Below are positions 26,963 through 28,155 of a stretch of 64,000 bases of DNA, in pieces. Each line of letters begins with the position of its first letter. The stretch's first letter is position 1. The stretch spans positions 6,392,501-6,456,500 of the forward strand of contig NZ_MEHJ01000001.1 in NCBI RefSeq assembly GCF_001746415.1. The letters are read 5' to 3'. Made by a program: the position numbers and the translations under genes. The notes under the pieces were generated by a model. The model was not told the DNA's origin. It was given only the letters and a program-made list of their open reading frames with translations, and did not search any database. The stretch is from Streptomyces agglomeratus. GTDB lineage: Bacteria > Actinomycetota > Actinomycetes > Streptomycetales > Streptomycetaceae.

Positions 26963-27991
26963 ATGGCGGTACGTGCAGCAGTGGCAGGAGCGAGCGGGTA
27001 CGCGGGCGGCGAGCTGCTGCGCCTGCTCCTCGCCCACCCCGGTGTGGAGATCGGCGCCCTGACCGGCCACTCCAACGCCGGGCAGCGCCTGGGCTCTCTC
27101 CAGCCCCACCTGCTGCCGCTGGCCGGACGGGTGCTGGAGCCGACCACCGCCGAGGTGCTCGCGGGGCACGACGTCGTCTTCCTCGCGCTTCCGCACGGCC
27201 AGTCCGCCGCGGTCGCCGGGCAGTTGGGCGACGAGGGGGTCGTGGTCGACATGGGCGCCGACTTCCGGCTCCGGGACGCGGGCGACTGGGAGAAGTTCTA
27301 CGGTTCGCCGCACGCCGGAACCTGGCCGTACGGCCTGCCCGAGCTCCCCGGCGCCCGCGCCGCGCTCGCGGGCTCCAAGCGGATCGCCGTCCCCGGCTGC
27401 TACCCGACCGCCGTCTCGCTCGCGCTCTTCCCGGCGTACGCCGCCCAGCTTGTGGAGCCGGACGCCGTGATCGTCGCCGCCACCGGCACCTCCGGCGCGG
27501 GCAAGGCGCTCAAGCCGCATCTGCTCGGCAGCGAGGTGATGGGCTCCATGTCGCCGTACGGCGTCGGAGGCGGCCACCGCCACACCCCCGAGATGATCCA
27601 GAACCTCAGCGCCGCCGCGGGCGAGCCGGTCACCGTCTCCTTCACGCCGACACTGGCCCCCATGCCGCGCGGCATCCTCGCCACGTGCAGCGCCAGGGCG
27701 AAGCCGGGTGTGACGGCGGCGGGCGTACGGGAGGCGTACGAGAAGGCGTACGCCGACGAGCCGTTCGTGCACCTCCTCCCCGAGGGCCAGTGGCCCGCCA
27801 CCGCCTCCGTGTACGGCTCCAACGCCGTCCAGATCCAGGTCGCGCACGACAAGGCCGCCGGCCGCGTGATCGTGATCAGCGCTATCGACAACCTCACCAA
27901 GGGCACCGCAGGCGGCGCGGTGCAGAGCATGAACATCGCCCTCGGGCTTCCCGAGGACACCGGACTTCCCACCACCGGAGTGGCTCCGTGA
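26963..27991 (+). CDS. argC: N-acetyl-gamma-glutamyl-phosphate reductase
   Basis: 342 residues. NADPH-binding [19 protein letters not shown] at the N-terminus and the active-site signature [13 protein letters not shown] with catalytic cysteine; [19 protein letters not shown] segment follows. Reduces N-acetylglutamyl 5-phosphate to the semialdehyde, third step of arginine synthesis. First gene of the arg operon, with a consensus-like promoter. Its TGA overlaps a GTG that opens the next small ORF. Confidence 0.97.
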
Positions 27992-28155
27992 GCGAGGCAG
28001 GCACAGCCGCCGGGCCGCGGACCACGACGAAGGCCGCGCCGCCGCGCCGCGCGGGCCTCAGTGACATCAGCCGCTACGGCGGCGCAGACATCAGCCGCCA
28101 ACGCGGCGGAGACATCAGCCGCTTCCGCGGCGGGGCGAACGAGGAGATGCAGTGA
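27988..28155 (+). CDS. Unrecognised 55-aa ORF with three DISR-GG repeats, between argC and argJ
   Basis: Reads [25 protein letters not shown], then three 8-residue units [24 protein letters not shown] (residues 26-49) and ends ANEEMQ. The DNA repeat is 24 bp, starting at 28063, 28087 and 28111. GTG start overlaps the argC stop (GTGA), with GGAG seven bases before it; its own TGA overlaps the argJ GTG (GTGA), and the argJ Shine-Dalgarno GAGGAG lies inside it. Those are the same junctions used throughout this operon, which argues for real translation. The protein is basic and its RGG-containing tail resembles RNA-binding RGG boxes; that is inference. No family recognised. Confidence 0.62.
28063..28134 (+). 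repeat. Three tandem 24-bp units inside the arg operon
   Basis: Units start at 28063, 28087 and 28111. Each begins GACATCAGCCGC and ends GGCGG or GGCGC; the middle bases vary. The period is a multiple of three, so the reading frame is kept. Confidence 0.85.

Follow-up and report, generated by a model that had tools for sequence, protein, structure and literature searches.

A 55-codon reading frame between argC and argJ in Streptomyces agglomeratus is very probably one copy of a dispersed, coupling-preserving repeat

The gap between argC and argJ in the arginine operon of Streptomyces agglomeratus is filled by a GTG-started ORF of 55 codons, and the question that it raises is whether the operon encodes a small protein of its own at this place or whether the ORF is there for some other reason. 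Reading of the window (the whole stretch of 64,000 nucleotides that was analysed) bore out the arrangement given in the preliminary description: the ORF shares a GTGA with each of its neighbours, with the argC stop at 27988-27991 and with the argJ start at 28152-28155, and a GGAG lies seven bases 5' of its GTG (Table 1). The identities of argC and argJ were backed by Pfam. Every other junction of the operon had also been described as a 4-base overlap, and this was found at the next three downstream junctions (29303-29306, 30205-30208 and 31416-31419 from the ORF coordinates), which are those of argJ-argB-argD-argR when named by gene order. The 24-bp tandem units were recovered by TRF as an array of 24 bp x 3.0 with a score of 107 (28063-28133); three units are indeed present, but the DISR-xx-GG pattern that had been assigned to all of them fits only two, unit 1 being read as DISRYGGA. 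Further tandem arrays were observed in the window at 51852-51972 (27 bp x 4.5) and 53971-54096 (36 bp x 3.5).

No family had been recognised for the 55 residues and none emerged from the searches: Pfam gave no match, a protein homology search returned four candidates with none at an E of 1 or less, and Rfam gave a single weak minus-strand match (18.4 bits versus a gathering score of 33.2 bits) that was taken as chance. The frame of the ORF is also open for 441 codons upstream, so that in this GC-rich DNA its openness is no evidence for a protein.

Table 1. Features of the argC-argJ junction in the window (positions are those of the window)
Feature	Position	Strand	Basis or remark
argC, upstream gene; its TGA lies within the GTGA that starts the element	26963..27991	+	ORF list, Pfam
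GGAG, probably the ancestral argJ Shine-Dalgarno in argC (judging from empty junctions), now before the relay ORF	27977..27980	+	
Inserted element, 164 bp (92-bp unit plus three 24-bp units), beginning with GTGA and ending just before the argJ start	27988..28151	+	
Relay ORF, 55 codons, with 4-nt overlaps with its neighbours at start and stop	27988..28155	+	
Main hairpin, 5' arm: GTGAGC foot, GAGGC, upper stem	27988..28006	+	
Main hairpin, 3' arm	28047..28059	+	read against family consensus
GCCTC, complementary to GAGGC at 27994..27998	28055..28059	+	main hairpin arms
24-bp unit 1, secondary hairpin	28063..28086	+	
24-bp unit 2	28087..28110	+	
24-bp unit 3	28111..28134	+	
3' foot GCGAAC, whose partner in the family consensus is the 5' foot GTGAGC	28135..28140	+	
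GAGGAG, argJ Shine-Dalgarno carried by the element	28141..28146	+	
argJ, downstream gene	28152..29306	+	ORF list, Pfam

The same junction was then compared across Streptomyces. After 14 of 147 argC-argJ junctions had been removed as duplicates, 133 distinct ones were left; 53 of them carry an insert, a share that is inflated because the element itself was the reason for fetching many of the loci, and the other 80 are empty, with a gap of 0 and argC directly overlapping argJ. The ORF thus does not encode a conserved protein. Among the best 80 named genome contigs by argC match, the insert was found in 15 and the direct overlap in 65. A profile recognised 49 of the 53 inserts, in 16 lengths, as one and the same repeat of about 92 bp, or of 116 bp with one 24-bp unit; the four that it missed (L071, L093, L105 and L133) are too diverged, and L133 is plainly a sister of L103. 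Single inserts measure 59, 74, 77, 92, 98, 113, 116, 119, 122, 131, 134, 143, 149 and, in the window, 164 bp, and double inserts 178, 211, 214 and 235 bp. It is clear from these 18 distinct lengths that phase is kept: in all 53 inserts the last stop of the ORF chain falls exactly on the argJ start, for which the chance would be about (1/3)^18 if the lengths were independent, an estimate to be read with the fact that they are not fully so. The other possibility raised in the preliminary description, a repeat by which coupling over the gap is maintained, therefore appears to be right in essence, as far as phase in the sequences can tell.

On a quickly built tree with 133 rows of argC and argJ sequence pieces, parsimony requires 32 changes of the filled or empty state, and at least 18 are forced by starred branches; gain is indistinguishable from loss in these changes. 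Nearest to the window stands a short-form junction, followed by empty junctions.

When the junction DNA was searched against 392 Streptomyces genomes, matches were also obtained between genes other than argC and argJ. Searched with the nhmmer profile, 183 of 324 sequences yielded 221 hits, which make up 173 distinct clusters; eight clusters were left out of locus grouping, and the other 165 fall into 40 locus groups by protein clustering of the flanks, some groups being splits of one locus. Many copies lie in housekeeping operons, at nuoB-nuoC, cysC-cysD, hisB and purQ-purL. Pfam, run on one flanking protein at each of ten junctions, identified NuoB, a PAPS-reductase domain (CysD by context), HisB, NuoD, PurL, a penicillin-binding protein, a class-V aminotransferase (SufS by context), triosephosphate isomerase, RibB and an amidase (GatA by context); names of flanking genes outside these ten junctions are a reading of the sequences. 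Tandem copies (2, 3 or 9) occur in 18 of the 173 clusters, nine copies being found in two of them.

Of 295 Streptomyces genomes, 96 had a near-exact 3' arm (18-mer, one mismatch allowed), the highest number in one genome being 13; one reversed-control match was among the matches listed. In a class-wide sample the same 18-mer was found in 6 of 22 Streptomyces and in 4 of 224 other genomes, against five reversed-control hits among the latter; the repeat is restricted to Streptomyces as far as this sample goes, which is one without other genera of the order. The source genome of the window gave three exact matches to the 24-bp unit, all in the window element, no other copy of the 3' arm within one mismatch, and the 5' arm within three mismatches in the window element only (reversed control 0), and none of its own loci with weaker matches (L004-L008 and L169-L198) has a profile hit. 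As far as these three patterns show, it carries a single copy. A phage search gave no match to the element, and a plasmid search gave matches in three Streptomyces plasmids. On NZ_CP108157.1 (L396, 1439-3755) a plasmid-borne argC-argJ pair was observed with the element unannotated in its gap.

The position of the copies relative to the flanking genes was determined using third-position GC of codons as the test for coding, and 6 of the 173 clusters, which have no clear 5' boundary, were left out. The TGA of the element closes the upstream coding frame in 148 of 167 testable clusters, and the start of the downstream gene lies on the stop of the inserted ORF (the relay ORF) in 128 of 159; both were found in 118 clusters. 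Judging from the listed exceptions, many of the clusters that fail on the downstream side seem to have a short downstream gene or an in-frame fusion. Most copies sit on 4-nt stop/start overlaps in the same orientation as the genes and lead from the upstream stop codon through a relay ORF to the next start codon, mostly with a Shine-Dalgarno. Counted by cluster, start-to-start phase is correct in 139 of 157, and counted by distinct combination of locus and length in 69 of 85; the 16 clusters left out of the former count include the window copy, which is counted in the argC-argJ set above. Among the 18 copies with broken phase, ten are in the phase of fusion to the next gene.

Relay ORFs phased to run into the next gene were observed in L161, L231, L240, L246, L249, L284, L321 and a few others, which predicts that the product of that gene gains some 30 residues or more at its N-terminus, for instance CysD in L161. 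Empty junctions were read from the listing in 27 of 30 fetched cases at cysC-cysD (26 with RTGA and one with TGATG) and in 28 of 30 at nuoB-nuoC, indicating that the empty target is a 4-nt stop/start overlap, which is repeated at both ends when the junction is filled. In the empty cysC-cysD junctions L332 and L353 the bases round the stop (CTGTGACC) resemble filled sites and are possibly footprints of precise loss.

The consensus of 118 nonredundant short copies (81 columns), obtained after 33 of 151 short-form copies had been dropped for an identity of 95% or higher, describes a long imperfect hairpin. Its stem consists of the feet GTGAGC/GCGAAC with a tandem GA/GA mismatch, followed by CGC/GCG and then by a 7-bp upper stem, and it carries an apex of some 40 nt whose middle varies. 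Compensatory changes run from the foot towards the apex: 53 cells were changed on both sides, compared with 1-6 when slid partners were used, in pair counts that, like the Fisher tests below, ignore relatedness and in which shared sub-lineages of copies overstate independence. Nine of 14 pairs had a permutation p of 0.004 or less and one had 0.026, while four hardly vary. A matching change of the 3' foot was found in 3 of 6 ATGA-type copies, and GGGAAC in all four GTGACC copies, which are all from nuoB-nuoC, so that this is perhaps one event. An alternative pair is seen again at as many as five locus groups, and the 24 argC-argJ copies, too, include compensated pairs. Over all copies G.T-type cells outnumber A.C-type cells (45 versus 22), which favours RNA of the sense strand; this wobble bias is absent among the argC-argJ copies alone (10 versus 9).

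In the long form the GAGAA internal loop is replaced by a secondary hairpin, GCCGC-NNNN-GCGGC, which is the 24-bp DISR unit. When repeat units were counted across copies, as had been suggested, the strict DISR pattern was found in 17 of 167 clusters, from seven locus groups, with a single unit in each cluster apart from the window, for which the pattern gives two units whereas TRF and direct reading show three. The window copy has kept both feet and GAGGC/GCCTC, and its upper stem is partly decayed, with 4 of 7 pairs left when read against the consensus. Folding of single sequences gave z values against shuffles of 0.09 for the consensus, -0.85 for L108, 0.82 for L012 and -1.53 for the window copy, none being clearly more stable, and the minimum-energy fold of the window copy does not contain the main stem; such folding is uninformative here, probably as a result of GC content.

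The ribosome sites of filled and empty junctions were also compared. The Shine-Dalgarno of argJ lies in the end of argC in 80 of 80 empty junctions and inside the element in 53 of 53 filled ones. In the latter, the argC-borne Shine-Dalgarno was kept in 41 and was gone in 12 by several different base changes (Fisher 7e-6, filled versus empty), and with recognised inserts only it was lost in 9 of 49 (p 1e-4), neither value being corrected for relatedness. This pattern suggests that the element re-supplies the ribosome site of the next gene and that the relay ORF is less reliant on such a site. Over all loci, a Shine-Dalgarno-like motif precedes the next start in 149 of 167 clusters and is missing in 18.

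Taken together, we consider it very probable that the 55-codon ORF is one resident copy of a dispersed Streptomyces element that preserves coupling and resembles the mycobacterial interspersed repetitive units (MIRUs; Supply et al. 1997, as cited in a passage of PMC12548453). Its dispersal indicates that the element is probably mobile; the peptide would most likely be a by-product, and the DISR repeats would be translated secondary hairpins that have expanded to three. The element may have spread by transposition or copying into coupled junctions, with precise and frequent gain or loss. A ribosome terminating on argC would open the foot of the hairpin, reinitiate at the overlapping GTG and translate the relay ORF through the hairpin or hairpins until it ends at 28153-28155, where it would be handed over to argJ; argJ would also be served by its own Shine-Dalgarno just 3' of the hairpin. 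As stop, start, relay and Shine-Dalgarno would all be brought by the element, coupling is proposed to survive the insertion. A fuller version of this account is put forward tentatively, namely that a mobile hairpin family on core-operon overlaps becomes domesticated as the host ribosome site decays, that its RNA structure, through compensatory evolution in place, sets translation of the next gene, and that the 24-bp units act as a tuning rheostat. No description of the repeat in Streptomyces was found in the open-licence literature by title and start of abstract among the matches listed; as far as this search reached, the MIRU-like element was previously undescribed in the genus.

The dispersal, the conserved hairpin feet, the fixed stop/start target and the patchy copy number seen with the 3' arm (present in 96 of the 295 genomes) would also suit a selfish single-strand DNA hairpin transposon of the IS200/IS605 or REP/RAYT type, with a structure kept for mobility and the junction as a harmless target. 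REP/RAYT repeats and IS200/IS605 ends are dispersed palindromes with conserved hairpin feet as well, mostly in non-coding gaps, whereas the Streptomyces element is open in phase and sits on stop and start codons. Since compensation is also found among the resident argC-argJ copies, and since the overall wobble bias favours sense-strand RNA, we regard a purely selfish transposon as doubtful. Rickettsia palindromic elements and mitochondrial byp elements are mobile hairpins that are tolerated in genes through in-frame translation or ribosome bypass; the Streptomyces element is likewise tolerated within translated sequence, but it lies between genes and re-creates both stop and start.

Compensation from the foot towards the apex, the argC-argJ copies included, and the sense-strand excess of G.T cells expected of mRNA structure also agree with an explanation in which the hairpin is the point: a REP-like element of mRNA stability, processing or pausing would tune argC versus argJ, and the frame would be kept only because out-of-frame ribosomes would disturb argJ. 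We find this unlikely. Phase that holds in 53 of 53 inserts over 18 lengths points to a role of relay ORF translation, the frequent changes between filled and empty state argue against an essential role of the element, and the wobble bias is absent among the copies that stand between argC and argJ.

In order of codon position, the entropy of the unpaired columns was 0.545, 0.714 and 0.675 bits, with no excess at the third position, and that of the hairpin apex 0.79, 0.92 and 1.01 bits, with a slight third-position trend. In 96 ungapped copies no internal stop was found in the relay frame, compared with 25 and 2 in the other frames. The ends of the peptide are conserved and its centre is variable, the conserved residues coinciding largely with the hairpin arms. 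From these sequence patterns, selection appears to act on phase and structure, with no clear selection on the peptide. An RGG/RG RNA-binding protein was considered as a candidate and rejected, the strict unit pattern being confined to the 17 clusters named above and no clear constraint being seen at the amino-acid level. The conserved small RGG-like protein that had been proposed to bind RNA and tune arg mRNA or ArgJ could not be upheld, given the absence of the ORF from 80 of 133 junctions, the rarity of the DISR unit, the variable centre and the presence of the same repeat between unrelated genes. For a genuine small basic (RGG-like) protein with its own function in arginine metabolism one may point to the ORF chain, open in all 53 filled junctions and preceded by a Shine-Dalgarno in 41, to the conserved peptide ends and to the trend in the apex; we nevertheless hold it to be very improbable, as most junctions have no such ORF, unrelated genes flank the same repeat, the conserved residues largely follow the hairpin arms, the unpaired columns show no third-position excess, its own Shine-Dalgarno is lost in 12 of 53 junctions and the peptide has neither protein relative nor Pfam family. 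An arginine attenuator, in which ribosomes stall at Arg codons of the small ORF under arginine scarcity, fits the 8 Arg among the 55 residues of the window copy, but it is largely refuted by the few Arg codons of typical copies (three conserved Arg positions among 27 tabulated) and by the copies in nuo, cys, his and pur operons, and its likelihood is negligible.

The repeat was set beside MIRUs by the description of the latter, and the likeness appears to be one of design. MIRUs are known mainly as typing markers. They are described, in passages of a 2025 review, as apparently mobile short repeats inserted at start codons and bearing an ORF that is coupled at -4 nt to the gene that follows, with little effect on the expression of that gene (PMC12548453). 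In passages of a second source they occur in tandem, with 77-bp and 53-bp forms, 24 bp apart, at senX3-regX3, and are confined to M. leprae and the M. tuberculosis complex (PMC4213456). Going by these passages, the Streptomyces repeat shares with them the dispersal at many operon junctions (here 173 clusters, 165 of them in 40 locus groups), the insertion at start codons with an ORF overlapping the next gene by -4 nt, in arrangement only, and the tandem copies with a 24-bp step (92/116 bp here, 53/77 bp in MIRUs), all four lengths being 2 mod 3; it differs from them in belonging to another genus. A further difference is the covarying hairpin of the Streptomyces repeat; to our knowledge, MIRUs lack dyad symmetry.

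A second family of MIRU design, in a safe and tractable genus and filled or empty at one junction in close relatives, amounts to a natural experiment on translational coupling. On the same genes it offers contrasts of relay present or absent, of 0, 1 or 3 secondary hairpins, and of a next-gene ribosome site that is carried by the upstream gene or by the element. It is also a warning that an overlap and a Shine-Dalgarno alone are insufficient for annotating small intergenic ORFs of operons as regulatory proteins.

A GGGGGNACCNCCCAG palindrome had no match in the window, and a second palindromic repeat of this type was seen nested in copies of the element, L123, L126, L154, L202, L217, L229, L059, L099 and L315; at argC-argJ, copies with the nested repeat are still in phase.
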